The notes below the pieces were generated by a model. It worked only from the letters and a program-made list of their open reading frames with translations. It searched no databases and was not told the DNA's origin. From a virus, in IMG/VR virus record IMGVR_UViG_3300030060_001926, positions 40,184-82,250 of that record: a stretch of 42,067 bases of DNA; one strand, written 5' to 3'. The position numbers and the translations under genes are program-made. Positions 1-41,861 of the stretch are shown one piece after another (position 1 is the first letter of the stretch; each line of letters opens with the position of its first letter).

Positions 1-1838
1 ACCCAATCAACATGGCCTTCTTCTTTGACATACTTTTGAATACCATAAAATGTAAGGCCATATGCATCACACATGGTGCTACGCTTAGCAACCTTACGAG
101 GCAAACCATCAGGCCAGTAGTCAACAAACTTATCATACCATTCAATACTATCCTCGTTTGAATCCATTACCTCATAAGCATTGTTAGCTACATATTGATA
201 AAGGTCTTGTGGCTTTTTGCTTGGCAAAACATTTGTAAGTTTAGCAAGCTTACTGTCACGCATAATAGCAGACCAGTGTTGAACACCATTGTTTGCACCA
301 TCCTTTTGGATAGGTAGCTGTGTCATACCATCTGTTCTGCATAATTCAAAACAAGCAGCAAGACGTTGAAAGCTAGGGTTCTTTTTCTTAGCTTTTGATT
401 GCCAAGTGCAGTTAGTATATGGGTTTTCTACATACCCACGGATCTCATCCATGTTATCATCAACCCATTTAACACGTTCATCATAACTAAGTTTATCTTG
501 ATCAAACAAGTTAGCAGTATGAACCTTAAGCCAATACAAGCCACGCTCTGTTTGGGGAACAGGCTTAGCAAACTGAATCAATGCACGATCAAAGTCAATG
601 CCTTGACATGACAGCAGTTCACATACAGTATATGCACGACCACGAAAGTCAAGCGTGTATGGCATGTAAAAGAAGCCAGCGTCTTTCATTTTACGGGCAA
701 GCTCTAGACGAACAAGCATACGACTACGAGACTGTTCTTCTTTGTACCACTCACCCCATGCTTCTGTTGAATCAGCCATCCATTTTGCTTGCTCTTTCTT
801 AGTACCATCTTCAGGATACGGACGAGAGAATGCAAAGTCTCTGAATGTATAAGCAGGTAGGTTTGCTGTTCGGTGATCAGTATAAAACAGATCTGACATA
901 ACCTCGAAAATCTTTTCGTTGATTGACCATTCTGTATTCATCATAGCATTCAAACCATCAAGAACCATCTCGCTTGGCTTGGAGTTGTAGTCCCTAGGAT
1001 CACAACCAACAGGATGATAGCGTTTGATCATACGCTTACGAATCCAAGGCGACAAGAAACCACCATCTTCTTTTTCTGTATGTGGAACAGGAGGACAAAG
1101 CATAGGTCGATAAACCATACCGCCAAGCTCTAGAAGATTGTGTCGTTTATGAAGTTCACGAAGAACATCAGGTGAAAAAGAAATAAGCAAAGACTTTTTC
1201 TTACGTCCAGTCCACACTACCTTTGATGCAATGATATCAGACTGCATTGCAATCCGAAGCATGTTGTGACCAAAGTCTTCTTTTTGTTTAGGCGAATACT
1301 TATGTACGTCACCCATTTTCTTAGTAAAAGCACGGCATCTCTTTGGAGTCCAGTTCTTAATGAACTTAGATTGTCGAGTCCAGTCATCTTTAAACTTTTT
1401 CTTAGCTTGTTGATAGTTATTAATAGCGATAACATCATCAGCAATAAGTTTAGCTACTGATTGTGCAGAAGGTGCAGTCAATGGAACACCTTGAACAAAA
1501 TCAATATTAGTTAGCGTCTGTCGAGACAAGAACATATTAATAACAGAACGAATTGTAATGTCTGCCATCTTAGCAGCACCAACAGAAAGCAATGGAGCAA
1601 GCCATGCTGGATTCTTTGGTCCTTCACAAACCTTATCAATCCACATTTGATAGTATGGAGTTAGGTGAATAACAGCAGACTCAAGCAGCAACTGCTCAGG
1701 TTTGCCTTCATCTTTTGCACGTTCCCAGTCTTTCCAGTACCGCTCTACACCAGAATCAACAAGCTCTTCCTCCCATGCTACCTGTTCGTTCTTTCTGTTT
1801 TCTTGTTCGACTACAGTTAGTTCATCCCATAGGGACAT
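1..1838 (-). CDS. T7-like single-subunit RNA polymerase (3' end cut by window edge)
   Basis: Phage DNA-directed RNA polymerase that would transcribe the phage's own promoters. About 612 codons are present before the left edge cuts the gene. The T7 RNAP signature blocks appear in order and at T7-like spacing: DFRGR at about residues 397-401 (T7 421-425), motif A DGANNGVQHWSA with the catalytic Asp at about 513 (T7 D537), and motif B AKRSTMCDAYG with Lys at about 585 and Tyr at about 593 (T7 K631/Y639). Motif C (HD) lies outside the window. The ATG follows AAGGAG with good spacing, and that ribosome site sits inside the last codons of thyX, whose stop abuts the start codon, so the two genes are probably translated together. 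Base composition matches the AT-rich phage backbone, unlike the second polymerase at 6900-8753. Confidence 0.95.
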   Translation of the reverse strand, partial: MSLWDELTVVEQENRKNEQVAWEEELVDSGVERYWKDWERAKDEGKPEQLLLESAVIHLTPYYQMWIDKVCEGPKNPAWLAPLLSVGAAKMADITIRSVINMFLSRQTLTNIDFVQGVPLTAPSAQSVAKLIADDVIAINNYQQAKKKFKDDWTRQSKFIKNWTPKRCRAFTKKMGDVHKYSPKQKEDFGHNMLRIAMQSDIIASKVVWTGRKKKSLLISFSPDVLRELHKRHNLLELGGMVYRPMLCPPVPHTEKEDGGFLSPWIRKRMIKRYHPVGCDPRDYNSKPSEMVLDGLNAMMNTEWSINEKIFEVMSDLFYTDHRTANLPAYTFRDFAFSRPYPEDGTKKEQAKWMADSTEAWGEWYKEEQSRSRMLVRLELARKMKDAGFFYMPYTLDFRGRAYTVCELLSCQGIDFDRALIQFAKPVPQTERGLYWLKVHTANLFDQDKLSYDERVKWVDDNMDEIRGYVENPYTNCTWQSKAKKKNPSFQRLAACFELCRTDGMTQLPIQKDGANNGVQHWSAIMRDSKLAKLTNVLPSKKPQDLYQYVANNAYEVMDSNEDSIEWYDKFVDYWPDGLPRKVAKRSTMCDAYGLTFYGIQKYVKEEGHVDW

Positions 1839-3108: not shown

Positions 3109-4050
3109 TTAAGCGTTAGATAGAGTATATTCGAGAAGCTTCTGCTTCTTGTTAGCATTAGATCCATAGAAGTTAGCCGAGAACTTGTTCTCAAGCTTAT
3201 TCTCTCCACGGAAACTAGCATCATGGTCCATCCAGTTTGTCATTGCATTGAATGCAATCCAAGCATTGGAACCAAGAGCAGTAGACTCGTTATCGAAGAT
3301 CTGCCAGAACTTCATAACAGTACTTTGCTTCTTGTTGTAAGCTCGTCTATCGCTGTCATTCTTGATATCAGTATACACAGGAACATTCTTGACAACCTTA
3401 TTATAAGCATTGTCAAAGTAGTTAGCAACGTCACCTGAGGTCATGTTACATGACGCAAGATAGTTGGCCTGCTTTTGGAACTCTTCAGTCCGCTGATAGA
3501 AATTAATCATGGTAGTGGTAAGATCATCAATCTTATCTTCCATGTTACCCTTGTGTCGGATACTAATACAATGACCAGCAGCTTTACCTTCACTCATAGC
3601 CATGTTCAGAGTGTTCTCACACCATGGGCGAACAGACGTAGGAGTTGCTGAAAGAGAGTAAAGGCCATCATGACCATTAGTCAACAGCAGATAAGGCTTG
3701 ATAGGATCATCAGCATTACCAACATTAAAGCTACTTGCTTCTACAGCCAGCCATACCCGAGCACCATTACGGAGTTCACCAGCAGAGGTAACCTTAAGGC
3801 TATCATTGTTGGCAATACGCTCAGCCATGTACACTAGCTCTTGGTTCTGAACAATCTTGTAGTCAGGACCAACAATACCAAGAACTTCATTGGTATCAGT
3901 ACGAACAGTAGCACGACGGTTAGTCGTATAAGCTTCAGTTGAAGCAGTGGGAGCAATTAGATTATGTGACAGCTCTACCTTCCAGTCAAGACCGGAGTCA
4001 GCAAGAGTGTCAGATACAATCTGATTGCCCGCAAGATCTAGAATACTCAT
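3109..4050 (-). CDS. DUF932 / phage-plasmid-like protein
   Basis: A 313-residue member of the DUF932 (phage/plasmid-like TIGR03299) family, common in phages and plasmids and of unknown biochemical function. Family hallmarks are the opening region around DWKVE, the block GIVGPDYKIVQNQELVYM (about residues 57-75) typical of the N-terminal half, GARVWLAVE, the TNGHDG segment, and the C-terminal KFWQIFDNESTALGSNAWIAFNAMTNWMDH. The start ATG is preceded by GGAGATG. It lies inside the last 41 bases of the upstream small gene, so the two are translationally coupled. The gene is closed by the strong stem-loop at 3030-3102. It is the last and largest gene of a five-gene run that begins at 5101. Confidence 0.88.
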   Translation of the reverse strand: MSILDLAGNQIVSDTLADSGLDWKVELSHNLIAPTASTEAYTTNRRATVRTDTNEVLGIVGPDYKIVQNQELVYMAERIANNDSLKVTSAGELRNGARVWLAVEASSFNVGNADDPIKPYLLLTNGHDGLYSLSATPTSVRPWCENTLNMAMSEGKAAGHCISIRHKGNMEDKIDDLTTTMINFYQRTEEFQKQANYLASCNMTSGDVANYFDNAYNKVVKNVPVYTDIKNDSDRRAYNKKQSTVMKFWQIFDNESTALGSNAWIAFNAMTNWMDHDASFRGENKLENKFSANFYGSNANKKQKLLEYTLSNA

Positions 4051-4249
4051 TAGTTAAATCATCTCCATAGTTATCAACAAAGTGTTGGGCTGGAACCCAT
4101 TGTTCATTATCAATGCAAACCCAGCCATCATCAGTGTAATTAGTAATTATTTTACTTTTGTATAAACGTTCTAGGAATGCGAACTTCTGAATAATATTCA
4201 TCCCACTCAAATTCAGATGGTTCGTCGGCCCAGACTTCTTCATATTCAT
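4010..4249 (-). CDS. Small unknown protein (79 aa) overlapping DUF932
   Basis: No recognisable domain. The ATG overlaps the TGA of the preceding gene (ATGA) and its end overlaps the DUF932 start by 41 bases in another frame, a layout typical of coupled phage genes. The middle reads DGWVCIDNEQWVPAQHFVDNYGDDL, a Trp/acidic stretch that looks like real protein. A later start at MNIIQKF is possible. Confidence 0.55.
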   Translation of the reverse strand: MNMKKSGPTNHLNLSGMNIIQKFAFLERLYKSKIITNYTDDGWVCIDNEQWVPAQHFVDNYGDDLTNEYSRSCGQSDCI

Positions 4250-4467
4250 TGTAGTTCTTCCATGCTAAGCAATCCCCTTCCGAGGATTTCAAGATCAATC
4301 CGATCAAGCTCATCTTCAATTTCAGTAAGCGAAGTTTCTGCGTCACCAGTTGGTAGTTCTGAAGCATTCAGCATTTCCTTGATTACCATGAAGGTATTCC
4401 TAGCAGCAAGAAGAACAGAATCGTCCACAGATTCTAAGTCTTTCATGCAATTGTTCCCATTTAACAT
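4246..4467 (-). CDS. Small acidic helical protein (73 aa)
   Basis: Predicted acidic, helix-rich protein with leucine spacing that could form a short coiled coil (EIEDELDRIDLEILGRGLLSMEEL). Function unknown. A TTG at 4473 would add two residues; ATG 4467 is preferred. The stop overlaps the next start (ATGA), and the frame overlaps the upstream gene end. Confidence 0.55.
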   Translation of the reverse strand: MLNGNNCMKDLESVDDSVLLAARNTFMVIKEMLNASELPTGDAETSLTEIEDELDRIDLEILGRGLLSMEELQ

Positions 4468-4469
4468 TA

Positions 4470-4709
4470 TCAAATTTTCTTAATCCTTTCTGCAAGATTA
4501 TCAATCATATCAGGTGTTTGCCATCCGAGCACATCACCTTTAGAATAATCATAATTAATTTTGCCATTAGGATCAATAACAGCCACCTCATATTCAGGTG
4601 GGTTAGCTCCAGCGTTGGAGTAAAAGCCCTCTCCAGAGATAACGGAAAGGGACCAGCCATTGTCGAATGGTCCGATATACGATTGTTGTACAGTGCCGGG
4701 GAAACTCAA
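4470..4709 (-). CDS. Small unknown protein (79 aa), TTG start
   Basis: Unknown. Gly/Pro/aromatic-rich N-terminal half (GPFDNGWSLSVISGEGFYSN) followed by an alternating hydrophobic stretch (EYEVAVIDPNGKINYDYS) that suggests a small beta protein, then a short C-terminal helix ending KKI. The only start that keeps the full frame is TTG, overlapping the TGA of the upstream gene (TTGA), with GGAGG twelve bases before it. Translation therefore probably depends on ribosomes finishing the upstream gene. Confidence 0.55.
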   Translation of the reverse strand: MSFPGTVQQSYIGPFDNGWSLSVISGEGFYSNAGANPPEYEVAVIDPNGKINYDYSKGDVLGWQTPDMIDNLAERIKKI

Positions 4710-5101
4710 TGTACTGCAAAGCCTCCAGAGTTACGAACAAAGTCGATCCAATCTTGGAGTCGCCACAGTGGAATCTTGTAGTGATCTTTCCATTCATCTT
4801 GGAAGGGAACAAAGAGATCTACAGTCTCTCCCTCGTCAGTAGTCACAGTCTCAATGAAGTCAGGATAGTCTTCTTTGAGTGAGTCGAGTTCCTTCTGCAT
4901 GACATCAGCACATTCCTCAACTTGACTAGCAGGAATGCCTTGTCCATCATTGAAGGACATAGAAGCATCCAGCTCCTCGCCATAGATATGGCTACAGGCA
5001 TTGCCCATGAATTCATGGATAGGCCTCCATCCCCAGCAGTTAGCTCGGAAATAGTCATTCTCAGGATCAGTTGGATTGTTAGCGTAAACGTCCATTCCCA
5101 T
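4706..5101 (-). CDS. Unknown 131-residue soluble protein
   Basis: First gene of the small-gene/DUF932 run and first AT-rich gene after the GC-rich island. Begins MGMDVYANNPTDPENDYFRANCWGWRPI, an aromatic- and Asn-rich opening recalling small phage/bacterial proteins of unknown role, with a long acidic helical middle (ECADVMQKELDSLKEDYPDF) and a Trp-rich end (LWRLQDWIDFVRNSGG). The start at 5101 is chosen because GGAGA lies eight bases before it; the frame also opens at 5116 and 5095. No signal peptide or membrane segment. Confidence 0.65.
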   Translation of the reverse strand: MGMDVYANNPTDPENDYFRANCWGWRPIHEFMGNACSHIYGEELDASMSFNDGQGIPASQVEECADVMQKELDSLKEDYPDFIETVTTDEGETVDLFVPFQDEWKDHYKIPLWRLQDWIDFVRNSGGFAVH

Positions 5102-5164
5102 AATTATTATCTCCATTATTTAAAATTTAGACATCCATCAGCTCACATCAATAAGCTAGGTTAT

Positions 5165-5293
5165 TTGGCAAAGATACTACAGTATACAGGCGTGTTGCCA
5201 TTTACACTACTGGGCCTTCTAGGCCACTACCTAGGATCATGCCAGCTACAAAAGCTGAGCAGGCAGGATTCGAACCTGCATCTCCTAGTATAC
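5165..5293 (-). other. tRNA-like domain in permuted order
   Basis: On the minus strand a perfect tRNA T-arm (GCAGG-TTCGAAT-CCTGC, 5263-5279) comes first. A D-arm look-alike, TA-GTGT-AAATGGCA-ACAC (5192-5209), comes about 55 bases later. Flanking them, CCTGTATAC (5182-5190) can pair with GTATAC-T-AGG (5284-5293), a 9-bp helix with one bulge where an anticodon stem would be. No matching acceptor stem or anticodon loop is found, so it is not an ordinary tRNA. It could be a tRNA-mimic domain of the structured RNA, a permuted or decayed tRNA, or chance. Confidence 0.4.
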
Positions 5294-6060
5294 TGTTGTA
5301 TACCTTTGTAAGCTTTCACGAATACGTTACTTGCAGTATAAGGATTTCACGGCCTCGTCCGGAATCTATACCGTAGCGAGGCCCGCTTTGGGCCTAAGAA
5401 CTATTTATACTCGCCCAAACGAGTCGTACTTATGATGGATGCATCCATAAAGACGAGGGGTCCCATAAGTACATTAGTTCAAAAGTGGGCAGGATTTCTT
5501 GATTACCTGCAACGTTTCGGAACCATATCAAGTTCTAATATGTCCTACTTTGTACCACCTACACGAGCCTGACTAAGGCTGGCTCATCCGATTGGACTCT
5601 GCCAGATGGGTCACCATCTTGGTAGTTGTGCGTTAGCCCTATGGTAAAGGCTTGTTCCGCCACCACAGTCTAGCCTGATCGAGGCATAGACTTAGTTTGT
5701 TGTGTTGTTTGGCTGCACCGTTTGGGTCACCCCCACTCGCAGTTCCGGACTACGATAGGCTTTGTGTTTAGAGAGCGGCAGCACACTCTAGCGTCAGTCT
5801 ATATTACACCATTTAGGGGAGTAGACTGACCGCCATACAGTCCCCGAGGCATGGCGTATCCTCCTACATAGCGTAGGAAGTAACATCGCCTCTCAAACAA
5901 CATCAAAGAGACAGCCTGAGGTTGCCCTCAAGTTGCCCTGTGCGTCCCTTGTACGGGACCACACTTATTTCATGGTAGCATGAGCCTAGGTGAAATAACT
6001 TTTTAAGACCCTCGGTGTTTATTGCACCACCCTAGCGAACAGTACGCTACGATCCTGTTC
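5165..6060 (-). ncRNA. Large structured non-coding RNA candidate (GOLLD/ROOL-like)
   Basis: About 0.9 kb without a credible gene but crowded with helices. Read on the minus strand: GAACAG/CTGTTC (6034-6059), TTATTTCA/TGAAATAA (5965-5998), GTCCC/GGGAC (5945-5960), TGAGG-GCAA-CCTCA with a GNRA loop (5917-5930), CCTAC/GTAGG (5863-5877), CGCCAT/ATGGCG (5831-5856), a 9-bp GTCAGTCTA/TAGACTGAC helix (5793-5830), AGTCTA+GCCT stem (5667-5692), AGATGG-TGAC-CCATCT (near 5605-5620), GAGCC/GGCTC (near 5566-5586), GCAGG/CCTGC (near 5490-5510), a 9-bp GTACTTATG/CATAAGTAC helix enclosing an inner palindrome (5426-5472), ACTCG/CGAGT, GGCCTCG/CGAGGCC (5351-5383), then a tRNA-like end. Length, helix density, GNRA loop, phage setting and tRNA-like part fit the giant ornate GOLLD/ROOL type, but I have not matched it to any family. 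Ends are approximate and could reach the 84-aa gene at 6222. Confidence 0.6.
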
Positions 6061-6221
6061 ACGGCCATCTTTTGGTACTCCGTTTGTCTGCATGACAACA
6101 GTTGCAGGCACGGGCCAGCCTGAATAGCACCTTAGTCCCCCGAAGGGGACCAAGGGCCAGAGAGAGAGAATCACCCTGCATCCCCCAGAAGGGGACGTAG
6201 GGCGAGAGAAAAGAGCAGACC
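6061..6221 (-). other. Tandem stable hairpins behind the 84-aa gene
   Basis: Two similar stem-loops in a row on the minus strand: GTCCCC-TTCG-GGGGAC with an extra-stable UUCG loop (6135-6150) and CGTCCCC-TTCT-GGGGGATG (6179-6197). Each is bordered by GCCCT-type arms, and a CT-rich tract lies between them. A further CTGCA/TGCAG hairpin lies near 6090-6110. There is no clear T-run, so they may protect the mRNA 3' end, cap the structured RNA or act as weak terminators. No convincing gene; short frames here are incidental. Confidence 0.55.
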
Positions 6222-6476
6222 CTAGAGAGTGATGGGCTTGCCTTCTGCGTCCACGAAGGGATCTTCGGGCCACAGCTGGGCAGCCTTCTCATTCAGCTCC
6301 TTGCGATCAGCTTCTCCCCACCGATTCTGCTCGGTAGCACCCGTGTCCGGGTCCTTGATCGCCAGCTCCACTCCGTAGCAGGACTTGAACCTGTTACGCC
6401 AGTAGGCCAGAGCCTTGGAAGGGTCCGAGGGAGGCCCCTTAGGACCTCGTCTCTTCCGTTGAAGGATGGTCGTCAT
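6222..6476 (-). CDS. Small basic protein (84 aa) in the GC-rich island
   Basis: Unknown function. The N-terminus is strongly basic (TTILQRKRRGPKG), suggesting nucleic-acid contact. The rest is mixed charged with several Trp (LAYWRNRFKSCYGVEL, NRWGEADRKEL, LWPEDPFV). The start is well supported by GGAG seven bases upstream. It follows the compact RNA polymerase, separated from it by a terminator and a 365-base structured leader, so it is probably a separately controlled unit. GC-rich codon use groups it with the polymerase and not with the phage backbone. Confidence 0.65.
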   Translation of the reverse strand: MTTILQRKRRGPKGPPSDPSKALAYWRNRFKSCYGVELAIKDPDTGATEQNRWGEADRKELNEKAAQLWPEDPFVDAEGKPITL

Positions 6477-6841
6477 GACACATCTCCGGGGGTATGTACT
6501 TAGGTTGGACTAAGGTGTACAAGCCTAGTCACCAACCATAGTGTGAAGCTACCCAACCACACACTAATATCACCATCCCTAAGAGCTACCCTAGGGACCA
6601 GTACTACTATTACACCCAACTTTACGTCGGCTGCAACAATACCACTATAGTTCGTCGCTCGAACCACCGGGGCCGCAGATCACGGTGATCAGTCTCTAAG
6701 GCACGTGGTGTTCGTGCCGCTCCGGCGTACTTGCACTCCCACCGTGACTGGGGTCTCACGAACCACAGCACACTAGCGTAGCGGGAATGTATTGCGTCCA
6801 CCCTCTGACCCTACATGGGATCGGAATATTTATTCCCCCTT
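6477..6841 (-). other. Gene-free structured leader upstream of the 84-aa gene
   Basis: No credible gene on either strand. On the minus strand it holds the hairpin GGAATA/TATTCC just after the polymerase terminator, GGCACG/CGTGCC (near 6702-6720), GATCAC-C-GTGATC, TCCCTA/TAGGGA, TAGTGTG/CACACTA and CTTAG/CTAAG close to the start codon. This resembles the leader of the compact polymerase (8754-8975), which also carries TAGTGTG-type stems, and may hold the promoter and mRNA regulatory structure for this unit. Confidence 0.45.
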
Positions 6842-6875
6842 AGAAAAGAAACTCCCCGCCCGGTAGGGCGAGGAG
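6842..6875 (-). terminator. T-phi-like terminator after the compact RNA polymerase
   Basis: Minus-strand hairpin of 10 bp (one G-U) with core GCCC-TACC-GGGC at 6852-6875, followed by TTTCTTTTC. It shares its core with the hairpins at 8982-9009, 9456-9481 and 41874-41901. Confidence 0.85.
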
Positions 6876-6899
6876 AATGTGGTGTGTACGACTCGAAGG

Positions 6900-8753
6900 C
6901 TAGGCTCGAAGCAGGACAGCGTCAGCGGGAAGGGCATGGTAGACACGCCCGAGAGTTTCCGCATTCTCGCTCATCACCTCGTTGTACGCCTCGGTGGCGA
7001 CACGTTCCAAGATGTGCATGTGATTCGGGTGAACCCCAAACGCATCATGGATGGAGGTGACGAAGATGCCCAAGGCTCCCAGTTTCCGAATGATCCGAAC
7101 TGCGATCAGTCGGTCGAGCATGAAGATCCTTTTCGCCAAGAGCGGCGTTCCGGAATCTTCCAAGGTGTGAACGTAGGTCGAACAGCTGGGCTGTCCGATG
7201 ACCTTGAAGTTCTCATCCCTTCGCCTGTACCGAACAGCACGGGTCAGGCCCTTGTGGACTTTGAAGGGTGAGGTCTGGTACTCGTAGCCATCCGTTCCCC
7301 TGTAGATGGGGAGATCGCCGTTGGAGAGGTGATACTTCCAGTTCTTCCGGATCTCTTCCTGAAACGAATCAAGGAAGGGGAACTTGCGATGGAGGACTCT
7401 CGTCAACTTCTTCGAGAGCTTGCCAATGGCTTCCATCTGCTCATCGGGGGACAGGTCCTTACCGATGTGTTCGAGCAGAATCGGATGGATGGACGGCAAA
7501 CGCAATCCATCTTCCCCGAAGTTCCACTCACCGAAAGCGTCCTTGCTCATGTCCGTGAGCTTGCACGAGATGGCACTCTCGCCCCCGCCGTACTGGCCGG
7601 GAGTAATGCAGCTCTTGGAGATCGGCTTCAGGTCATCCAAGGAGTGAATCCTGAGATTACGGATGCTATCCGTGAGACCCTGTGAGAACCGATCATGAGC
7701 ACTGAGGAAGTGCGGACTCGCAACGTTCACCATCTGATGGTGTTCCGAGAAGTTTTGCCTCGCTGCGATGAGACCCATGCCCTGTGCGACAAAGTCGCGG
7801 TACACGGTGTAACTGGTGCTACCAGTCTCTCTGGCTTCGAGCCAACCGCGAGCAGCGGCCAACTCATCAGCGAACTTCTTGCCCTTCGCGTGGAACATCA
7901 GTTGTTCCTTGCTCTTGGCATCGCGATCCACTTTGTTCGCCCACGCATCTCTCATCGCGTCGGTCCACCGCCTAGTCCCGAAGGATTCGGTGATGTGCCT
8001 GCGAAGATTGAGCCAGCCCGCGTCCGTCAACTTCTCAGAACGCCCCTGCATGACGCACCGGAGGAACCGGCTGTAGACAGGGTGAAGGGCCTTCGGGTAC
8101 ATTCGACCCGACTCGTCCATGCGGGAAACAACGAGGTGGAACAAGTTTTCCTCGATCCGGTCGAAGAGGTCTGCCAGCTTATCGCCGGAAACCTGATCCT
8201 CTTCCGAAAGAAGGGACTCGATCACCTCATCCTCGTAGTCGTAGAAGATCTTGTTACGATCCTCTTCCGACAAGCTTTCACGGAACCGCTTGACATCGTC
8301 CCAGTTCGACTGGTTGATGGTCCACGGCTTGTCCGTGAGGAGCTGCATGGCCTCCGACTGCTCGTCCGAGACCTTGAGGTCAATGCGACGAGCAACGTGT
8401 GGTTGCACGTTGGGAGGGGTTCGGTGGGCGAGACGACGCTGAGGTGCGACCCACTTGTCCCGGTCGAGCCGTTCCAAGTTGTCGTCCAGTCGTTCGAACA
8501 CGACCTTCTGCACCTCATTCATCGAAGACACCATCTGGATCTTGGTCTCCCGTCCGTTCCTCTTGAGAGGTTCGGTTTCGAGCGACAGTTCCGAGCGGAA
8601 CGTCATCCAAAGTGAAATGGACATCTCCGACATCATCCAGCTTTCGGACTTCTTGTCCTCCAGCCACGGCTTGAGCTTCGACTGGAGGAGATCGTCCGTC
8701 AACTGACGGAGCTTCGCCTTCGAGTCGTTAGCAAGCGTCTTACAGAGTTTCAT
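6900..8753 (-). CDS. Compact, highly divergent single-subunit RNA polymerase
   Basis: A 617-residue protein with the T7-family catalytic skeleton. The sequence shows DESGR at 213-217 (T7 DxxGR), an Asp at 320 in RDFVAQGMGLIAA followed 20 residues on by MVNV (T7 motif A, D537), motif B as KSCITPGQYGG with Lys380 and Tyr388 exactly eight apart as in T7 K631/Y639, and motif C FVTSIHDAFGVHP with His569-Asp570 (T7 H811-D812). The N-terminal domain before DxxGR is about 210 residues shorter than in T7, the A-to-B spacing is shorter, and the C-terminal tail is about 24 residues shorter. The ATG has GGAAGGG upstream. GC-rich codons set it apart from the AT-rich polymerase at 1-1838. It is flanked by terminators on both sides and preceded by a palindrome-rich leader, so it is a self-contained transcription unit. 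Activity and promoter choice are inferred, not shown. Confidence 0.85.
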   Translation of the reverse strand: MKLCKTLANDSKAKLRQLTDDLLQSKLKPWLEDKKSESWMMSEMSISLWMTFRSELSLETEPLKRNGRETKIQMVSSMNEVQKVVFERLDDNLERLDRDKWVAPQRRLAHRTPPNVQPHVARRIDLKVSDEQSEAMQLLTDKPWTINQSNWDDVKRFRESLSEEDRNKIFYDYEDEVIESLLSEEDQVSGDKLADLFDRIEENLFHLVVSRMDESGRMYPKALHPVYSRFLRCVMQGRSEKLTDAGWLNLRRHITESFGTRRWTDAMRDAWANKVDRDAKSKEQLMFHAKGKKFADELAAARGWLEARETGSTSYTVYRDFVAQGMGLIAARQNFSEHHQMVNVASPHFLSAHDRFSQGLTDSIRNLRIHSLDDLKPISKSCITPGQYGGGESAISCKLTDMSKDAFGEWNFGEDGLRLPSIHPILLEHIGKDLSPDEQMEAIGKLSKKLTRVLHRKFPFLDSFQEEIRKNWKYHLSNGDLPIYRGTDGYEYQTSPFKVHKGLTRAVRYRRRDENFKVIGQPSCSTYVHTLEDSGTPLLAKRIFMLDRLIAVRIIRKLGALGIFVTSIHDAFGVHPNHMHILERVATEAYNEVMSENAETLGRVYHALPADAVLLRA

Positions 8754-8981
8754 GGTGAAACCCTTCCTGTCTCTTGCGAGACTGCTTGGTTAGTGACAGA
8801 GCCTGCAACGTTGCAGACTCAAGTCGGCACACAACCTTTCGGTCATGCACAGAACGAAACCCACACTACGACTAGTGTGGATAACTCACACTCACTCCCG
8901 TACACTACACATCCTTGCGTAGAGGAGTCTTTGAGTCATAGCACGGTAGGTACATCCTTGTACTTAAGTGCTTCCAAAAAT
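8754..8981 (-). promoter_or_regulatory. Palindrome-rich leader of the compact polymerase
   Basis: Gene-free, between a terminator and the polymerase start. On the minus strand it contains the GNRA hairpin GTCTC-GCAA-GAGAC (8769-8782) just before the ribosome site, a 22-base near-perfect palindrome centred on AACGTT (8799-8820), and the 8-bp stem CCACACTA/TAGTGTGG (8861-8880). A perfect DnaA-box 9-mer TTATCCACA (8876-8884, read on the minus strand) overlaps the edge of that stem. It may combine promoter, operator or origin functions; which one cannot be told from sequence. Confidence 0.5.
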
Positions 8982-9009
8982 CCTGTCTCACCCGGTAGGG
9001 CAAGACAGG
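8976..9009 (-). terminator. T-phi-like terminator after the 123-aa gene
   Basis: Minus-strand stem of 12 pairs (CCTGTCT/AGACAGG outside, TGCCC/GGGTG inside with G-U pairs), loop TACC, followed by ATTTTT. It is the clearest of the four related hairpins. Confidence 0.9.
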
Positions 9010-9019
9010 GGGGTTGAGT

Positions 9020-9391
9020 TCAGGTGAACAGCTTGAGGTCCTTGACAGCCACGCTCTTGTCGAGCGTCCACTCGGTGAGGTTGAAGTAGGGTTCGGGAAC
9101 CCAGTGCAACTCTTCACCCAGCTGATTGGCCGTGACGCAGACACGCATCACACACCAACGCGTCCTTCCGCCGCCAATCCTCTGAGCGAAGACGTGCGGC
9201 TCCGAAACGAAGCTGTCGTCGGACTCCGGCACGTAGTCGTGGAGCTTCTTGATCTTGTCGATCATCTTCTCCAGCTCCGGGCCGTTGCAATCCTGAAGTG
9301 CCTTCTCGAAAGAAGACGCGAACAGGACGTTAGTCCTGAACTCTATCGGCGTGCCTACAACACGACGATGCACGGTAATGGTAGCATCCAT
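9020..9391 (-). CDS. Unknown 123-residue island protein
   Basis: Not recognised. Soluble, with N-terminal beta-like sequence (ATITVHRRVVGTPIEFRTNVLF), a helical Lys/Glu middle (ELEKMIDKIKKLHDYV) and a beta-rich end containing RWCVMRVCVTANQL and WVPEPYFNLTEW. The start is supported by GGAG nine bases upstream. It forms a single-gene unit with terminators before (9456-9481) and after (8976-9009) and GC-rich codons like the polymerase downstream. A small hairpin CTCATC-GCGT-GATGAG lies in its leader (9422-9437) and may be an operator or an mRNA structure. Confidence 0.7.
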   Translation of the reverse strand: MDATITVHRRVVGTPIEFRTNVLFASSFEKALQDCNGPELEKMIDKIKKLHDYVPESDDSFVSEPHVFAQRIGGGRTRWCVMRVCVTANQLGEELHWVPEPYFNLTEWTLDKSVAVKDLKLFT

Positions 9392-9449
9392 AATGCTTAC
9401 TCCATTAGAGAAACAGTGTTAGCTCATCACGCGATGAGTTAGTACTGCG

Positions 9450-9481
9450 GAAAGCCTCAGTCACCCGTTAGGGCAGCTGAG
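9450..9481 (-). terminator. T-phi-like terminator after the zinc-ribbon gene
   Basis: Minus-strand hairpin CTCAG/CTGAG with inner GCCC-TAAC-GGGT and one C-A mismatch, followed by GCTTTCC. The T-run is short, so termination may be partial. Confidence 0.7.
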
Positions 9482-9503
9482 ACTGAGTGAGTCTCTGGGG
9501 GTA

Positions 9504-9773
9504 TCACTCCCCCCTTTCTGGTATCCGGTCCCAGAGAGCCGGAACCTCTGCACATTTCACGCAGACTTCTCCGTATCTCCACTCCGGGAACTCGTGCGAC
9601 CCGGTGTTGACCTCCACCGTGAGGTACGGTGTGTCACACTTCTCACACCTGAGTTCCTCCACAGCCTCCGGAGTCTCCGCTTCCGGATTCCTCAGGAAGG
9701 GGATCACAGTCGCGAGGACCATGAGGCCGATGAATGGGATGGCGAAAAGGACGATAAGGATGATGGTGAACAT
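9504..9773 (-). CDS. Membrane-anchored zinc-ribbon protein (89 aa)
   Basis: Residues 2-27 form one hydrophobic segment (FTIILIVLFAIPFIGLMVLA...), a membrane anchor. After an acidic linker come two CxxC pairs, CEKC and CVKC, about 28 residues apart, the pattern of a small zinc ribbon. The expected topology is an N-terminal anchor with the ribbon on one face of the membrane. The start has AAAGGA seven bases upstream. It is the first GC-rich gene of the island after the AT-rich pilin-like gene and is closed by its own terminator. Function unknown; binding a nucleic acid or a membrane protein partner is possible. Confidence 0.75.
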   Translation of the reverse strand: MFTIILIVLFAIPFIGLMVLATVIPFLRNPEAETPEAVEELRCEKCDTPYLTVEVNTGSHEFPEWRYGEVCVKCAEVPALWDRIPERGE

Positions 9774-9871
9774 TTGCTATTCCTTTCTAAGAATAGAGGG
9801 GTAACGGGGGGTAGCACAAAAACAATTTATACTACATGGCCTCGTGGATATTCTCGACCCCCTAGTCGATT
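9774..9871 (-). other. Junction between late genes and GC-rich island
   Basis: Gene-free. A 5-bp hairpin TCGAC/GTCGA lies just behind the pilin-like stop codon. A TAGTATAAAT stretch (near 9826-9836, minus strand) resembles GAGTATAAAT inside the structured RNA (near 5401-5411) and could be a promoter element. A GC-to-AT composition change falls here. Confidence 0.35.
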
Positions 9872-10066
9872 TTACGGTCCACCAATGCTACCATCTGGGT
9901 TAGTATCAAGAGCTGCACTTAGTTCTTGAAACTTTTCAACTTGCCCATCTCTAACTGTTTTAATTGCACCAATTGATCCTGCACCCATCACAGTGCCAAG
10001 GATCATGTATTCACCAGTTTGCATCCCACGTTCGTCTTTTAAAAATTGTTTAATAGCTGTAATCAT
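9872..10066 (-). CDS. Flp/PilA-like type IVb pilin-like protein (64 aa)
   Basis: The sequence opens MITAIKQFLKDERG then MQTGEYMILG, followed by a weakly hydrophobic helix (TVMGAGSIGAI) and a charged tail. This is the Flp (Tad) prepilin layout: a short basic leader ending in Gly, Glu at +5 and Tyr at +6 of the mature protein, then a hydrophobic stem. Caulobacter PilA has the same FLKDE.G....EY arrangement and a similar length. The hydrophobic stretch is less hydrophobic than in true pilins. The start is supported by GGAGAC upstream. It lies directly after the holin-like gene at the end of the late operon, with no other pilus genes. It could be a host-derived pilin decoy, a superinfection-exclusion factor or a lysis helper; the role is inference. 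Confidence 0.7.
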   Translation of the reverse strand: MITAIKQFLKDERGMQTGEYMILGTVMGAGSIGAIKTVRDGQVEKFQELSAALDTNPDGSIGGP

Positions 10067-10086
10067 TTAAGTCTCCATATGTTAAA

Positions 10087-10347
10087 TTATCTAGGTATGT
10101 CTTTTACAATAGACATCATTCTATTTGTAGACCACTCTCTGTTTTTATCAACGTTACTAATAATCATGTCAATCTCCCTTCGTAACTCTGTATTGTCTCT
10201 AGCTCTAATTTCCCTTTGGTGTTTTACTTGTTTTTCTAATGCGTTTACTTTGTGACTAATCCGCCACACAAAACCAATTAAAGCGAATAATGCAGTACTT
10301 AATATTGTCATCCCGATATCAACGAGATGTGCTCCTATGTCTTCCAT
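10087..10347 (-). CDS. Holin- or spanin-like membrane protein (86 aa)
   Basis: One transmembrane segment at about residues 9-29 (VDIGMTILSTALFALIGFVW), then a strongly charged heptad-rich region (VNALEKQVKHQREIRARDNTELRREIDMI) likely to form a coiled coil, and a basic C-terminus. Size, single membrane segment and position after the internal virion proteins match the T7 lysis genes 17.5 (holin) and 18.5 (spanin). A coiled coil of this kind leans toward an inner-membrane spanin or a class III holin. Start at 10347 is chosen because AGGAGG lies eight bases before it; the frame itself opens at 10377. Confidence 0.65.
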   Translation of the reverse strand: MEDIGAHLVDIGMTILSTALFALIGFVWRISHKVNALEKQVKHQREIRARDNTELRREIDMIISNVDKNREWSTNRMMSIVKDIPR

Positions 10348-10398
10348 TCTTTCTCCCTCCTGTGTAATGGTTAACAATCTTTATTACCCACTTCTAAG

Positions 10399-13300
10399 TT
10401 ACTGTCCGAACAATCCTTTCGGTGCTTCTTGAGTATCCCTGTCAATAATAGAGCTTACGACATCTTCGGGTTTGGAAGTAGGGGTAGTGATTTCGGGCGG
10501 CGCGGGTTGTTGGAGCGCGGCGGAAGAGGGTTGATTAACGGGGGCGGGGGGAGTGCCTATATTTTCAAGGGACTGCACAAGAGCCTGCCTAGTGTTAAAC
10601 TCTTTAATTACATCTGGAATATTTCCATCTAAAACCTGCTTATACATTTCCTTGGTATCATTATTCCACGTAATGGCTGCATGACTGCTTCTCATTCCGT
10701 AATGCAAGTTTGGAGTTTGAGAGCTGCCTGTAGTTCCTCCTCCTCCTGTTCTTCTGTTTGAATCCCTTGAGATTCCATCTCCACCTAGAGTGTACACACC
10801 TAATCTTATAGCTGAATCTGCATAAGGAATAATTCTGGTAGCGTTTAACATGTCTTGGTTATTGGGCATTGTAGTTAAGCCAAACATAGCTGCTCCTGCT
10901 TGAGCACCAGTAGATACAGCTCCTAGTGTAGTACCTAGTGCAGCAAAGGGAATGAACCCAGTATTCTTAGACAATGCTCTAGAGAAGTCATATTGACCGG
11001 GGAATTTGCCTTGTGCGATTCCGTCAATACCCATAGCAAGGACAGGGCCTAGAAGACTTAGCCATCTACCTAACAGAGGAGTTCTCACAAGTAGTTTAGA
11101 GAACTTAGCAAATCCGTCTTCTTCATACTCTTCTAGAATATCATCTAGTTCAATTCCTGCAGCTAATTGAAGTGCGGTCATGTAAAGCATATCCATGAGT
11201 AATAGACTGGTAAGACCAAAGGCTGTTCTACCCACGCTGCTCCTACTAGTCCTTCTAATCATTTGTTGACTAGCGAACAGTACAGGGTATCGACGATAGA
11301 TTTCAAACAATGCACTTGGAGTATCTAGCTCTCCTGTTCTTACGTCAAATACATTGGGAGTAAGAATAGCTTCTTCTACGTACTTCCTTTCTACTTCTTT
11401 CAATCCAGTAATTACATCTAGCTTTCGGTTATAGTCTTGTCTGTCAAGTCTAGAAGAGCGAGTTGTAAAGAGTTCGTGACTCATTTCAAAGGGTGAGTAT
11501 CTACCTTCTTCTGGCATCATGGTTTGCATATCAATGACTTTATCTACCTGTAACAACCCAGCCCTCATTAGATAAGATACAAGTTGTAGATCGCCTTCAA
11601 AATTACTGTACCCAGATTCTTTCATAGCTCCCTTTAAAGCTCTCTCTTGTTCTTCTATAGGTAATTTATCAATATTTTTCTCTTCTAATTTAGTTGCTAG
11701 CTCAAGCAGTTTACTTCTTCCTTTACTATCTAAATCTAATCCGCTTTGAATCCAAGAACGAGCATTGATGGCTCTAGCAGCAGTAATATTTTTAAGCTGC
11801 CATTTAGCCAGTCTCATTTGTTCGTTACCCATACCTTTAAATAATTTCATAGTTATGCCATCTTCTTGGGAACCAAAAGGTTTTTCAAACTCAGGTAAGT
11901 ATCCTTGTGTCATTGAATCAATGAGATAAGAGAAATCTTTAAGAACTCTTTTTCTTTCTTCTCTATTTGTAATACCCATAATAGGAGCGAAAGCAGTCCT
12001 AATAAATCCTGTTAAGTTTCTTCTGCCAATTAGTTCGTCCAAAGCAGAGTACCCGTTCTCAACAATAGATGTAGCTAAGAATAAGTTACCACCAAAAGCA
12101 ATTCTAGTGACAGCATTAGCTACTTCTGGTATAGCTGAGTCTATTGCGTTAGATGGACTAAGCTCTGTGTTTGGTCTTACCTTTCGCATTGCGTTATGCT
12201 TCTCATTTAAGATTGTTACAGTATCTGAAATTTGGCTCTTTGTTCTTGGGTTATTTTCTCCCTTACTGTCTAAGATAGCGTAGTTAGAATTATTAACAGC
12301 ACTTAAGAGATTCAACACTTGCTTAACATCACCGTGAACACCAAACTCTCTCATTGTTTTCTTTTCAGAAACTTCGTTATAGAGTCCGTGTCTAGCATTT
12401 TCTGCAAGAGCGGTTAAGTCAGTAACAAAGAATTCTTTCATATCATCGTGAGAATTTAACATTGCCTTAACACTAGGTAAGGCGAAGTTATCATTAGGAT
12501 AGTAAGCTCCTACTGCTGATCTTTCTAAGAAGTTAAAGAAGATATGATCTAAAGGATTTGTCTGTACACCAAAAGCTGAACTAAGAGAACGTGCTTTAAC
12601 TCTTCCCTCTACTCTAATGTTTGGAGTAATGCCTAGATTTTCCTTAGTCAAGCCTTCTAATCTTCTTGTGTTTACATTTTCTACAGTCTCGATAAACCCT
12701 TTGTAAGCTTCTTTAAATCTAGTTGTTTGAGTTCTAGTACCCTTAGCAAACATTTGATTAACAGTTACGTTTCCTTTGGTTAGTTGATTCATTAGTTTGG
12801 TCGAACCTAATCTAACCTTATTTAAAGCCATAATATCTCCGCCCTGCAATTTGCTATCAAGTATCATTACCTTGGCTCTTACGTCTCCTGTTTTATCTGT
12901 AATAGAGTATTCTAAAATAAAGTCGTACAATACTCTGTGATTTTCTTTTAGATTCTTAAGGTCACTAAAGCCTTTAGCGTTGTCTCCCAAGTGGGGTAAG
13001 AATCCTGCAGCAAGCATCATAGTTCCTTCTACTCTGCCATTTGCATTAAATTCTGATATTAGTTTCTTTTTAATTTCAGCCTTTGCTATATCTACGAATG
13101 TTCCCTTTGCTGTAATTAAATCACTGTTAACACTAGTGCTTAGTCTATAAGGAACTACATTAGTAAAGCCTGTCCCAAACTCTCCGATAGATTGTCCTGT
13201 ATCAATATTCTTTTCAGCCATTTGCCTAAACGTACTAGCCATTTGATTTAGCTGTTCTTTGATTAATTGTTTTTCTTCTTCAGAAAGTACTACCCCTAGA

Positions 13301-16300
13301 GCATCTTCAGATAAATCATATTCGTAACTACCAGCTACAGCTCCTTCATCTACGCTTTCAATAATCTGAACATTCAATACCTTGAATACTTCTTGAGTAC
13401 TCTTCTTCATTTTCTCTTCGCCACGTACAGTACTGTATAGAGGTCCGTTTAGTATTTTTACAATTTCTTTTTTATTCTCTCTCATAGACTGAGTAAAGGA
13501 ACTTAATAATTCTAACTCACGACGAACTGACGGAGTTCCTCTTGTGTTTGTAAACCCACCAGAGTTAGTAACAACGTTATCGTCAATCAGAGAAGTAAGT
13601 AACAAGGCAATTAAGTTGTGAGAGTTCCAAGTACCTTGGTGACCTGTATCTCCTAACAAAGCACCAACTAACCCGTCTCTTAAGCCCGGACTCATGTTAT
13701 TTGCGAGGGAACCTAGTCCTCTATTTACTGGTTCTCCGTAAGTATTAAACAGTCCTTCAGCAAGGTAAACAAAAGTAACAGCCTTTTCAAATGAATCTCC
13801 TTCTACTAGTACTCTTTCTAAATCAATTACAACTTCATCTGTTGGGTTTCGTACTTCATTTTCTAAGTCCTGCCGTTGTGTCTCAGCTGCATACTTACCT
13901 TTAACTTGATCTAAGCCTCCAATATATTCGTACCTAGTCATAGCTATAGTAGAAGCCCCTTCTCCAGCAGTTCCCAAGCCTACTGGTTCTCCGTAGTATC
14001 CTTCGCCCTTAGCCATGACAATATTATCTAGTTCAGTTTGTTCTTCGGGAGTTAATGAGTCCTTTGCCTTGAGTTCATTTTCCTTTCTAATCATGTTTCT
14101 AATTTCTAAATCTTTTACTGGATCTACTTTAAGGACTTCTAACTTGTCCATTTTCTTTCTCCACCCAAACCTTTTATCTGCAATGTCAGTACTATCAAAT
14201 TGATTTCCAGTATAAACATCATTACTGCTATCGTATCCGAAGACATTCAAAGCCATTCTTCTCATCTTCTTATCAAATTCTACATTGTCTGTTTCAAATG
14301 CACCTCGTAGAGAAAGCATAGTGTTAGACAAGTAGCCCATCATTCTTTTAATAGAGCTAGTAAACTTGCCCCATATACCTAGTTCTTCTGTAGTCAATCC
14401 TCTAATAACAGGTTGGACATCAGCGAGTAAGTATAGAGAAACAAACCCAGCAATAAACTCTTCTGGATCTTCTATATATCCTAGGAATTCTTCGTTTGCA
14501 GCTTCTGTTTCTACGCCACCATGCCAAGCTATTACAGCTTTTTTCATCATGCTTCTGCCTGCAGTACTTTGCGAAAGACCTACAAGTTCCATATACTCTG
14601 GGCTAAAGTCTTTAATAAATTTCAATCTAGCAATGTGGCCTAGCTCGTGAGCAATTATTTCTACAGCAGTAAAAGAATCTTTGGCTACTGATCTAAAGTT
14701 AGATCCTAGTCGAATAGTAAACTTACCGCCTGCTCGTTCAGCTTCTGCTCCTCGTTTGAGAATTTGATCCAAAGCTTTGAATTTTAATTCATGAACAATA
14801 TCAGGGTTTAGCATAAATGCTCTTGCAAGTAGAACTTTAACTGCGACTGATTCTTTTTTATCTATTCTTCCATTATGCACTAGCTCATCAATTTGTTTCA
14901 TTTGGTCTCTTACTAGCGGTTGCCAGAAAGGATCAAACGTTTCTACTCCATCCCCCGCCTCAATCTTTTTAATAACATCAGTAAGTTCCATAGTAGATCT
15001 TCCTACACCAGAATCCCAGTTCTGTTCAAAAATAGATCCCGGCAATTCATCTCTACTAGTTATATCTGTTAACTCTCTAATAGCATTTCTAATTGCATCT
15101 TGCATTTCTCTTTCATCTTGTACAGAAATACTTCCGTCTTCAGCTGGAGTAACAACTCCCTTTTCAATACGAGTTTGCAAGAAAGAATCATAAGCGTCAT
15201 CAGGATTTAAAGATCCGTCTGGATTTTCTAAAAGGAATTGACGAGCTGCATAGTGATGCTTGTTGTTTAGTCGAACGCCTTCATCAGAGATATTCATCTT
15301 TATTCTGGCAGACAAGTCCATCGCTGATTGAAGATCGATAGGCCAGCTATCTGCCTCTAACTCTTCTGGTTTGAAGAATAGTTTAACTTTGTTTTTTGTA
15401 AGATCTAGATTTGGATCTTCTAGCTTTAAAGCAACTAATCTAAGTTTATTAAACGCTGTTTGAGAACCGTTTCTGGTTTCGACAATTAGAGTTTCTAGTT
15501 CTTGTTTTAAAGTTTCAATTTCTGTTCCCGGTCCGATAGTATCTCTGCTTAACATGTGGACTAGTTTTCTTACTGGGCTGATATAAGATTCTCTCCAAGA
15601 GTCAACAGATGTACCTAGGTTTCCGTCGTTCCATCTAGCTCCTTCTCCAGAAGAGTAGTAGTCTAGATCTACAATCTCTACTATTCGCCCCTCAACGCTT
15701 GTCAGAGGATCCCTAACACTTCTGAGGGTAACTCCCCCTTCTTCGGAGGAAGCTCTTAGAAGGGACTCAGAGTCGTTTAAGGCAGCATGTTTAATCGCTG
15801 TACCATCGTATCCTAAGCCACTGGCTACTGCATCTTGCAAGGGAACTGCTCTTACTACTTGACCATTGTTATCTATCTTTACTCCTAACCCCTTGTTAAG
15901 CCAACTACTTAGAGTAAGGTCTCGCATTGTAGTAGCATTTTCAAGAGCCACAAACATTTTCATAGCTTCCTGAGGACCTAAGATTATCTTAGCATTTTTA
16001 GCCGTAATCTTTTGAGAGGTCATAAACATCATACCAAAACCTACAGCTGCTCCATACGGACTCTTTGCAGCTTCTCCTTCTCTTGATTTTCGTGAGATCT
16101 GGAGTCTGTATTGGTTTGTTTTCTTACCTTCTCCTTCCTTTACGTCTTGGTATATAACTTCTTCAATACCTACCTCTAATTCAAATGAAGGCATTCCGGC
16201 AACATGCTGTCTAGCTAATTCTCTTATCTCTGTTCTCTCTTGAATAGCTTCTTCCGTAGTCATGCCTTTGCCTATCTCTTGTTCCCATGTAGTAGGATCC

Positions 16301-19300
16301 ATAGCAAACTTAGAATACTTTCCTTCCTTGTAAGTTCTTAAGACATTACCATAAGCTTCGGTATATAAGATAGCGGCTAAGAATTTAGCTTTATCTGAAC
16401 CTTGGACTGCCCACCCTTCTTTTGTTAAGTCTGAAACTTCGAATAAATCAATCGTTTCAATCTCTTCTCCTTCATCAACTATAAGGGTATTGTAGTCTGC
16501 ATCTGTACCAAACTTAAAAGCATCGTCAAGCATAGTTCTTCTTAACAGCGTACCATCTGGATTATCTTCAGAAGCAACTGAAGTAAGGATATCAATCCAT
16601 TTCATATCGTCTGTTGGAGGATTAACTACTGCTACTGGATCTCCTCTTCTTGCAATCTCTAGCTTTCTTCTTCCTTCTGGATTTTTAATGTCTCTAGAGT
16701 ATCGAGCTACATCGTGTAGTCCGCTAATCCAAGCGTTCCTGTGAGCAACAGTATCTGAAGTTTCAACAAGATCCCTCTCTCTAACCCTTAGCATAACATC
16801 GCGTCTTGCTCTTTCTGCTTCTTTAATAACATAGAACCTAGCGAAGTTTGAAGGCTCTTCTTCTAACTGCCTCTCTAGTCCTCTATCCCTAGCCCATGAA
16901 TGTACTTCGTAATATAGTTTTGCAGCTCTTTGACCAGCGTTAGATCCCATATCAATGGCAATGTGTGCAGGCAAGACAGGAAGAACTTGAGGCAATTCTT
17001 CTGCATTCCAAGGCGAGTAGCCTCCAATGGCTTGTCCTCCTACCATAACATCTTCATCTCTAAGAGTCTCTTGATAGTTTCTAATCGAGTGTAGAGGTCC
17101 TAGTAAGTTATTTAATCTTTCTTGAATATGCAATCTTTGAAGTTTAAAGAAACCCATATCATAGTATTGAGATTCTTTATACTTAGGTCTCACAGCCATA
17201 GGTCCCTTTCGACCTGAAGTATGAATCATTACAGAAGTAGGATTATTTTCAGATACATGGTAAGGAGTATATCTAAAAGCTTGGTCAGAAGCCGCGACTA
17301 CTGCTTTATTTACGAGTCCTCCTGCCTTATTCTTAAGTTTAAGATATCGGCTTTTTGTCTTAGCTCTTTTCCACTCAGACATTTCGAATTCCATTTCTTG
17401 TTGTAGACTTCGGTGTCGTCTTTCTGAATGATCTCTCCAAGATTCTAAAACCTTTTCTAAGATAGAAGTTTCAGAAACTTCTTCGGTATAATCAGGGAAT
17501 ACATCTGCGGGTGGCTTGTCGTATCTAGACCATAACAGCATTTCTTGTTTAATCATTAAGTCTTCAACCTTATCTTCCAACTGTTTGTCTGTCATTCCGG
17601 AATCTCTGTCTTCTCTCAATGAAGGATCTCTAAGATCAAACATGCCTAAAGAATCTGCATTATCTTTGTCTGTTTCTAAGAAAGCGTCAAATTTAACTAG
17701 AATTTCATCTCTACTTAATCCTTCAGCATCCTCGCTCTTAAGGAAATCAAGGAAGCTTTCGTAGTATTTTCCTGTGTCTTTGTCTTGATAAAGAGATTTT
17801 CTTGCTACTCTTTCTAAAGATATGCCCATAGTATCAACTTGGTTACTTGTCGCATAGTCTCTAGTAGAGTTTCCACTAGGAAGCATTAAGTGATATAGCG
17901 CGTGTTTTTCAAACCCAAGGTAATCGTTAATATCAAAGTCAGTAAGACCTAGTAGATCAGCAGCTTCTTGCATTCTTTCAGCATTTAATCTGTATTCTTG
18001 AGAGTTTTGAATGTTTAAAGCTCTTAAATATCCAATAGTTTCTGCCGAAAGTTTGTCTTCTACTCCTGAAAGAATAGCTTGGAACTCTGAATAATTTGGT
18101 GATCCGGGGTGGATGGGTTCCCCTGCTTCTTTTTTCTCTTCTAAGAACTTCTTAGCTTTTTCAAATCGCTCGTCCCATCCCTTTGTTTTCTTCCATTCTT
18201 CAAAACTCATTTCGCCTTGTTTAGTATCTAGTCTCCACATTTGTCTTAACTTAGCATCTAATAGATCAATATGAGTAGCTGTGTTTTCTAAAGATTCTCC
18301 TAGGGCTTTATTGTCCATCTTCATAAGATCACGCCAAGCATCAATCAAGGGCTTATCTCTATCTTGATCAATCATAAGATACTTATGAACTAAAGTTTTT
18401 GTTTTATCGTTAGACCCTAAAGCAAGCTCTACTAGTAATACTCTAGTTTCATGGTGTCCGGATTGACTAAAGATAGCCTCTCTAATAACTTTAATGTTTT
18501 CTTCTGATGGTTTAATACCTGCTTCAACCATCGCATTCCAGCCCTCTCCACCCTTAGAAAACTCTTTAATAAAGTTTGGCATACCGCCGCCATAAATTTT
18601 TCTCATCACTGGAACTTTAAAGATACTTCTTAGTTTTTTAATTGCTTCAGCTTGCTTCTTTATTTCTTCATCTGTTTTTGCTTTTTCTTGTAAAGCAAGA
18701 TAATCTTTTACAGACCTAATATCAGTATCTTGAATGATCTTAAAGATTTGTCCTAATTCAGAATCAAAACTTGTAACTCCTGCTAAACCCTTGATTGCTG
18801 CTAACATATAAAAGTCTAATTCAGCCTTGGGCTTACCTCTAAATCCTCCGCTAGCTATTCTTTCAATAATTTCTGGGCCAGTCAAGGTCTCTCCATCTAC
18901 TTCTAACGTTGCAGTTGGATCATGAGCAAGAGATAGTAGCTTGTGTTCAAACACACCACTGGCTGTTCTATCGCTCCAGTTATCTAAAGACATTAGCATG
19001 TCTAAATTAACTCCTGTTCCTTCAGCCTCTCTAGCTTCTCTTAACTTCATTACTCTTTTAATAGCAGCATCTGTAAAGCCTTTGAACATAGGACCCATAG
19101 CTTCAATTGCCATTACCTCGCCAATTCTACCTAGAGGCACTAACACATGATCGCCGTGACTTAAGTCATACATTAATCCTTCGCCTGTATCAGCTAGGTT
19201 TCTTCTATCGATCTCTACTTCTTTACCATCGACCTCTACAGTAATGACTCCTTCTTCTACTCCCTCGTTAAACATAACCTTCTCTTGAGTAATCTGGTCA

Positions 19301-32561: not shown

Positions 32562-32571
32562 TATAGTTCTC

Positions 32572-34199: not shown

Positions 34200-34202
34200 G
34201 AC

Positions 34203-34540: not shown

Positions 34541-34558
34541 AATTTAATTTACCTCTTA

Positions 34559-38452: not shown

Positions 38453-38461
38453 TGCATTCTC

Positions 38462-41179: not shown

Positions 41180-41182
41180 AGA

Positions 41183-41845: not shown

Positions 41846-41861
41846 GAGGATCCTCCTATAT

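Follow-up and report, generated by a model that had tools for sequence, protein, structure and literature searches.

The gene at positions 6900 to 8753 (minus strand) of the window, the whole 42,067-nucleotide stretch of DNA analyzed here (positions 40184 to 82250 of an 82,250-bp IMG/VR virus record), is one uninterrupted open reading frame (ORF) with an ATG start. Its 617-aa product is well supported at the sequence level as a single-subunit RNA polymerase (ssRNAP), with the fold judged by profiles only. It is probably a functional, minimal, DNA-dependent enzyme that follows the plan of phage N4 RNAPII in a single chain, occupies a deep branch of its own, and acts as a second transcriptase beside the T7-like RNAP of the same phage. 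The ordinary enzyme is encoded at positions 3 to 1838 (minus strand), where the N-terminal 612 aa of a gene that exits the window match PHROG 414 (E = 6e-110). The initial annotation of this DNA had proposed such a pair, a compact ssRNAP with intact catalytic motifs beside a normal T7-like RNAP, and the proposal holds in the motif columns, in the profiles, and in the co-residence of the two genes. The compact polymerase lies in a GC-rich island that we found in two further viral contigs, L001 and L004, and a T7-like RNAP accompanies it in three out of three phages.

Family assignment of the 617-aa protein

The catalytic motifs of the window protein occur in the order DxxGR (residues 213 to 217), D320 (motif A), K376/K380/Y388-G389 (motif B), and H569-D570 (motif C). 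The first of these, DESGR, is the DxxGR upstream of motif A and aligns with residues 421 to 425 of T7 RNAP. In a free alignment of 17 ssRNAPs (the three island proteins and 14 reference RNAPs), DxxGR, D320, K380, Y388-G389, and H569-D570 all share columns with the references. The residues named in the initial annotation (D320, K380, Y388, and H569-D570) were correct, each falling in a single column, but its list overlooked DxxGR and K376 and did not give the strand. The motif-B arginine (R627 in T7) is present in all 14 references and is replaced by lysine (K376) in all three island proteins, a conservative change that does not disqualify them from ssRNAP membership.

Using hhalign, we compared a profile of the three island proteins with sets of known polymerases. 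Against N4-type RNAPII (gp15+gp16, represented by joined RNAP1 and RNAP2 from nine annotated N4-type phages), the probability was 97.3 (E = 2.2e-11, 365 columns), and the alignment superposed DxxGR and motifs A, B, and C. Controls for this match reached at most 0.7 in 30 column-shuffled versions and 0.1 in a reversed version. The probability was 13 against T7-like RNAPs (from four annotated phages and the L001 phage), 2.4 against vRNAPs, and 0.4 against phage PolA-type DNA polymerases; this last value rules out the DNA polymerase I family for the 617-aa protein. The L004 copy on its own matched weakly (4.4%).

Independent searches led to the same N4-type family, although the 617-aa protein gave next to no signal when searched directly. 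With relatives included, the best PDB profile match was N4 RNAP2 (6dt7_B, E = 0.025), and the L001 copy matched PHROG 2051 (E = 1.6e-8). The best tblastn match was the RNAP of the N4-like Erwinia phage S6 (E = 0.2), and a direct PHROG search with the 617-aa protein returned RNAPs only at E = 0.004 to 0.014. Single-sequence searches of PDB, Pfam, and NCBIfam with this protein gave no relevant match, and AF2 prediction from the three-sequence alignment had a pLDDT of 34.2 and a pTM of 0.24.

The copies in L001 and L004 are 66% and 39% identical to the window protein, respectively, and the distant copies share 38% to 39% identity. The gene is under purifying selection, with a dN/dS of 0.25 between the window and L001 and a range of 0.25 to 0.47 among the copies. 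Because there are relatives at these identities, a low dN/dS, and a profile match far above that of shuffled controls, the polymerase signal is more than chance.

The protein was initially described as lacking about 210 residues at its N terminus, and this count is right, as 212 residues precede DxxGR compared with 420 in T7. However, N4-type RNAPII has only 232 to 286, against 212 to 218 in the island proteins and 382 to 420 in T7-like RNAPs. Total lengths follow the same order, with 607 to 617 aa in the island proteins, 668 to 752 aa in N4 RNAPII (673 aa in N4 itself), and 779 to 883 aa in T7-like RNAPs; the motif-to-motif spacing of the island polymerase also fits N4 RNAPII. From these lengths, the missing N terminus corresponds to the N4 RNAPII design, realized in one chain. 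The protein is thus compact as claimed, but compactness is not new per se, since the nearest known family has the same truncated N terminus. N4 RNAPII itself has been described as a minimal, N-terminally truncated enzyme of 673 aa, which binds only single-stranded DNA and is recruited by gp2 (PMC4496689). What is new is an even smaller enzyme, made of one chain and deeply separated in the tree, with a co-resident T7-like RNAP and a GC-rich island with RNA elements around the gene.

The resemblance to N4 RNAPII of the Schitoviridae includes the truncated N terminus, the order DxxGR, A, B, C at similar spacing, the best profile match, and operation in a phage alongside another phage RNAP. In contrast, N4 RNAPII is a heterodimer whose two genes are split after DxxGR, whereas the island enzyme is one uninterrupted ORF in all three phages; the former has 673 aa and the motif-B arginine, and the latter 607 to 617 aa and lysine. 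The phages also differ, as the island resides in one with T7-like replication genes whose other RNAP is T7-like, and no homologues of the N4 helpers gp1 and gp2 were found in the island ORFs or the phage pieces searched. With the T7-like RNAPs of the Autographiviridae, the island polymerase shares the ssRNAP catalytic motifs, the single chain, and a full-length member in the same phage, but it has roughly 170 to 210 fewer residues before DxxGR, a weak profile match, and a separate deep branch. The N4 vRNAP belongs to the same ssRNAP superfamily but is a packaged protein of 3,500 aa with little profile similarity.

In a phylogenetic tree, the three island proteins formed a separate branch of length 2.76 with support of 100/100, outside both the N4 RNAPII clade and the T7-like group. 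The N4 RNAPII and T7-like profiles matched each other at 100% (E = 1.8e-43) and were closer mutually than either was to the island proteins. The tree thus sets the island polymerases apart as a deep lineage of their own, the third after N4 RNAPII and T7.

A GC-rich island shared by three phages

The island spans about 4.7 kb of the window (roughly 5180 to 9875) and has a GC content of 53% to 58%, compared with about 35% to 44% for the genome. GC3 is about 0.7 to 0.8 in the island ORFs (0.71 to 0.77 measured) and 0.2 to 0.45 in the neighboring genes, with 0.27 to 0.34 in the giant late gene and in those for terminase, ThyX, and the T7-like RNAP, and 0.45 in the first gene past the island; the shift is sharp at both edges. 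As the initial annotation had stated, the compact polymerase gene is GC-rich (GC 0.56, GC3 0.74) and the T7-like RNAP gene AT-rich (GC 0.41, GC3 0.32). The island occupies the same place in all three phages, directly after the giant late gene. At its start, just past the last AT-rich ORF, each carries the motif (T)AAATCGACTAGGGGGTC; in the window this 5' boundary motif, TAAAATCGACTAGGGGGTC, lies where AT-rich sequence gives way to GC-rich sequence (9856 to 9874, minus strand), with one good match per genome. It is a candidate promoter or RNA element. A search of the intergenic regions revealed no repeated promoter motif, and sigma-70-like promoters were not in excess.

When IMG/VR viral contigs were scanned with two DNA patterns, the C terminus of the giant gene, ORF123, and the polymerase, only L001 and L004 came up besides the window. 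Searches of annotated phages, of plasmids, and of 84,980 genomes gave no island polymerase within their sensitivity. Between L001 and L004, DNA identity is 93% for ORF123 with its flanks (dS 0.06), compared with a protein identity of 54% for the giant genes and about 50% for the genes other than the ORF123 block. The polymerase, unlike the ORF123 block, groups L001 with the window. This discordance indicates that parts of the island have been exchanged between these phages. Of the earlier suggestion of a separate genetic element, what is supported is that the GC-rich island acts as a distinct module subject to exchange. One recent acquisition would not explain a GC-rich composition that is kept across copies of 38% to 39% protein identity.

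The 82-kb record contains two terminases (about 49% identical) and two tail-tube sets (34% to 40%), located in the window at 30733 to 42067 and in contig piece L010 at 3856 to 19674, so that two related phages may have been joined near the island into one chimeric contig. Two further, independent contigs likewise combine the island with both polymerases, and in the L001 contig a single terminase turned up.

Several proteins in and around the island deserve mention in their own right. The giant protein adjoining it (4719 aa; 10399 to 24558, minus strand) contains a metalloprotease-like HExxH motif (HELGHIARLKF), and its conserved stretch R-x3-K-x7-YGG (residues 1977 to 1991) resembles motif B of N4 vRNAP. 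We rejected it as a vRNAP, as the best profile position fell exactly on vRNAP motif B but at 1% probability, and the motif score was not significant against shuffles. Just before the island, L001 (8435 to 8983) and L004 (8876 to 9460) encode a dockerin-like protein with DxNxDG repeats (Pfam E = 0.54, below the cut-off). Dockerin-like repeats of this type are associated with Planctomycetes, so the protein is a possible host clue; a genome search with it for a host found nothing. The L004 island also has an extra 161-aa ORF (13489 to 13974, plus strand), the ends of which resemble a sigma-type factor by eye and which has no Pfam or PHROG match.

Leaders, ribozyme, and tRNA-like RNA of the island

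All of the features in this section lie on the minus strand of the window unless noted. The first ORF of the island, ORF89 (9504 to 9773, GC3 0.73), is small with a hydrophobic N terminus. It is followed by ORF123 (9020 to 9391), which adjoins the polymerase gene in each of the three phages, at 72% and 70% identity, and has no Pfam, PHROG, or NCBIfam match, and, beyond the polymerase gene, by ORF84 (6222 to 6476), a small basic protein with a homologue in the L004 phage (37% to 40% identity). Structured leaders precede ORF123 (9392 to 9503), the polymerase gene (8754 to 9019, conserved in the three phages), and ORF84 (6477 to 6624, conserved). Terminator-like hairpins follow ORF123 (8982 to 9009) and the polymerase gene (6852 to 6875, conserved in the relatives). 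The island genes are probably arranged as separate units, each with a structured leader, an ORF, and a terminator-like hairpin. Synonymous change in ORF123 (pS 0.36) is low compared with the polymerase gene (0.59 to 0.69), even between distant phages, which suggests recent exchange or an RNA constraint within the gene.

Hairpins with an AAGGA loop, one or two per phage, occur in the polymerase leaders, and their stems differ from phage to phage. In the window, the hairpin GUACAAGGAUGUAC (8950 to 8963) has an AAGGAU loop and matches the published CsrA consensus RUACARGGAUGU exactly, and a second AAGGAU-loop hairpin lies at 8905 to 8922. Among 500 shuffles, two such hairpins per leader never arose for the window and arose once for L004; the single hairpin of L001 was not significant (62 of 500). 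These CsrA/RsmA-type hairpins may place the polymerase under host CsrA control.

The 3' part of the island carries a Pistol self-cleaving ribozyme (RF02679; 5348 to 5424) that scored 51.7 bits against a gathering score of 34.5, and its homologue in L004 (14336 to 14392) also lies above this threshold at 37.3 bits. A manA-like RNA (RF01745; 5479 to 5690) scored 37.8 bits, under the Rfam gathering score of 55.2, and L004 has a manA-related sequence at the same place. Just downstream of the ribozyme, the island ends in a permuted tRNA-like RNA (5179 to 5296; L004 counterpart at 14459 to 14586, plus strand), in which a T-arm precedes a D-arm and the two are linked by an extended anticodon-type stem. 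It has only two acceptor pairs and no anticodon loop, and ARAGORN calls no tRNA gene. Its pairing holds in 51 of 52 cells and 8 of the 26 pairs have changed on both sides, compared with no both-side changes when the partner was slid by one to three columns. As the L001 contig stops before this part of the island, the ribozyme and tRNA-like comparison covers the window and L004; with just these two sequences, which also served to draw the structure, the compensatory changes are good but not final evidence for the fold.

The closest parallel is the tRNA-associated theta ribozymes of gut phages (PMC10879173), which likewise place a small self-cleaving ribozyme near a tRNA-type RNA in a phage. In the present case, by contrast, the ribozyme is of the Pistol type, the tRNA-like RNA is permuted and acceptor-less, and both accompany a polymerase island.

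Role of the polymerase and rival readings

If the protein is a second transcriptase, it most likely serves a small private set of promoters, those of its own island and perhaps some middle genes. In T7, the N-terminal domain serves in upstream promoter contact and in RNA exit; the island enzyme has no such domain and for this reason would probably not open a duplex promoter unaided. Candidate helpers are a gp2.5-type SSB of the phage, as gp2 helps N4 RNAPII, or the product of the neighboring ORF123. Processing of the island transcript at its 3' end would fall to the Pistol ribozyme and the tRNA-like RNA. Terminator-like hairpins behind ORF123 and behind the polymerase gene, together with the lack of a sigma-70-like promoter excess, spoke for the transcriptase reading; the motif-B lysine, the weak match of the lone L004 copy, and the lack of gp1/gp2 homologues and of a repeated promoter motif counted against it.

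T7 RNAP primes T7 replication, and the initial annotation had raised a priming role for the compact enzyme as well, which here would mean that the polymerase primes or starts replication of the phage DNA from an origin within the island or close to it, instead of serving as a general transcriptase. The gene lies between the late and early blocks, a plausible origin or genome end, and is surrounded by structured DNA or RNA. However, a sister phage encodes a primase-helicase, a PolA-type DNA polymerase, and a gp2.5-like SSB, with matching ORFs in the window phage, so a dedicated primer is less needed; the T7-like RNAP could also do T7-style priming, and no origin-like repeat was identified. We consider this role unlikely. 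We would say much the same of the island being a separate mobile element, a satellite-like module riding in phages with its own polymerase, for which the sharp GC3 edges, the single invariant boundary motif per genome, and the differing histories of the island genes (an ORF123 block at 93% in phages otherwise near 50% in protein) are what one would expect. Its constant position in the three phages, its absence from the other viral, phage, plasmid, and genome collections at the sensitivity used, and the lack of any integrase or transposase ORF in the island or demonstrated direct repeats at its edges do not fit a mobile element well.

Other readings give the RNA elements a larger part or the polymerase a smaller one. 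The island might be a self-contained module passed from phage to phage, in which the polymerase makes and perhaps re-copies a structured RNA that cuts itself with the Pistol ribozyme and ends in the permuted tRNA-like RNA; we regard this as improbable, but if true, it would be a transcription or RNA-replication system running alongside the T7-like program of the phage. A decaying or non-catalytic relic retained for another role would accord with the motif-B change and the very long branch, yet the catalytic aspartates, lysine, and tyrosine are all kept in copies 38% to 39% identical and dN/dS is well under 1, which makes this quite improbable. The least probable reading is an RNA-templated polymerase that copies island RNA, with the island as a DNA-borne RNA replicon. 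It draws on the structured leaders, the ribozyme, and the tRNA-like RNA beside a divergent polymerase, and on coding mRNA that folds beyond codon- and dinucleotide-keeping shuffles (z of −5.8, −4.4, and −8.2). RNA-virus-like folding of the coding region, at first seen with z down to −10.5, was rejected after calibration, which placed it only in the upper range of phage genes: the excess per 150 nt was −3.6 kcal in the DNA polymerase gene of the window phage, −3.8 to −5.2 kcal in the island, and −7.0 kcal in the MS2 replicase. Because of this overlap, coding-RNA folding is not strong evidence, and the motifs are of the DNA-dependent ssRNAP type, with one known ribozyme per island.

On the preferred reading of a minimal second transcriptase, the island enzymes add a third deep lineage to the phage ssRNAPs and are the smallest of those compared, and so show how little protein the active site needs. 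A small, single-chain enzyme also makes promoter and template requirements directly testable in vitro. The presence of an N4-RNAPII-like enzyme in a phage of T7 type links two transcription strategies that are usually treated apart, and the island raises the question of what holds this part of the genome at a very different composition while its neighbors are AT-rich. A second polymerase together with RNA elements in a block of foreign composition suggests an extra transcription program in these phages.
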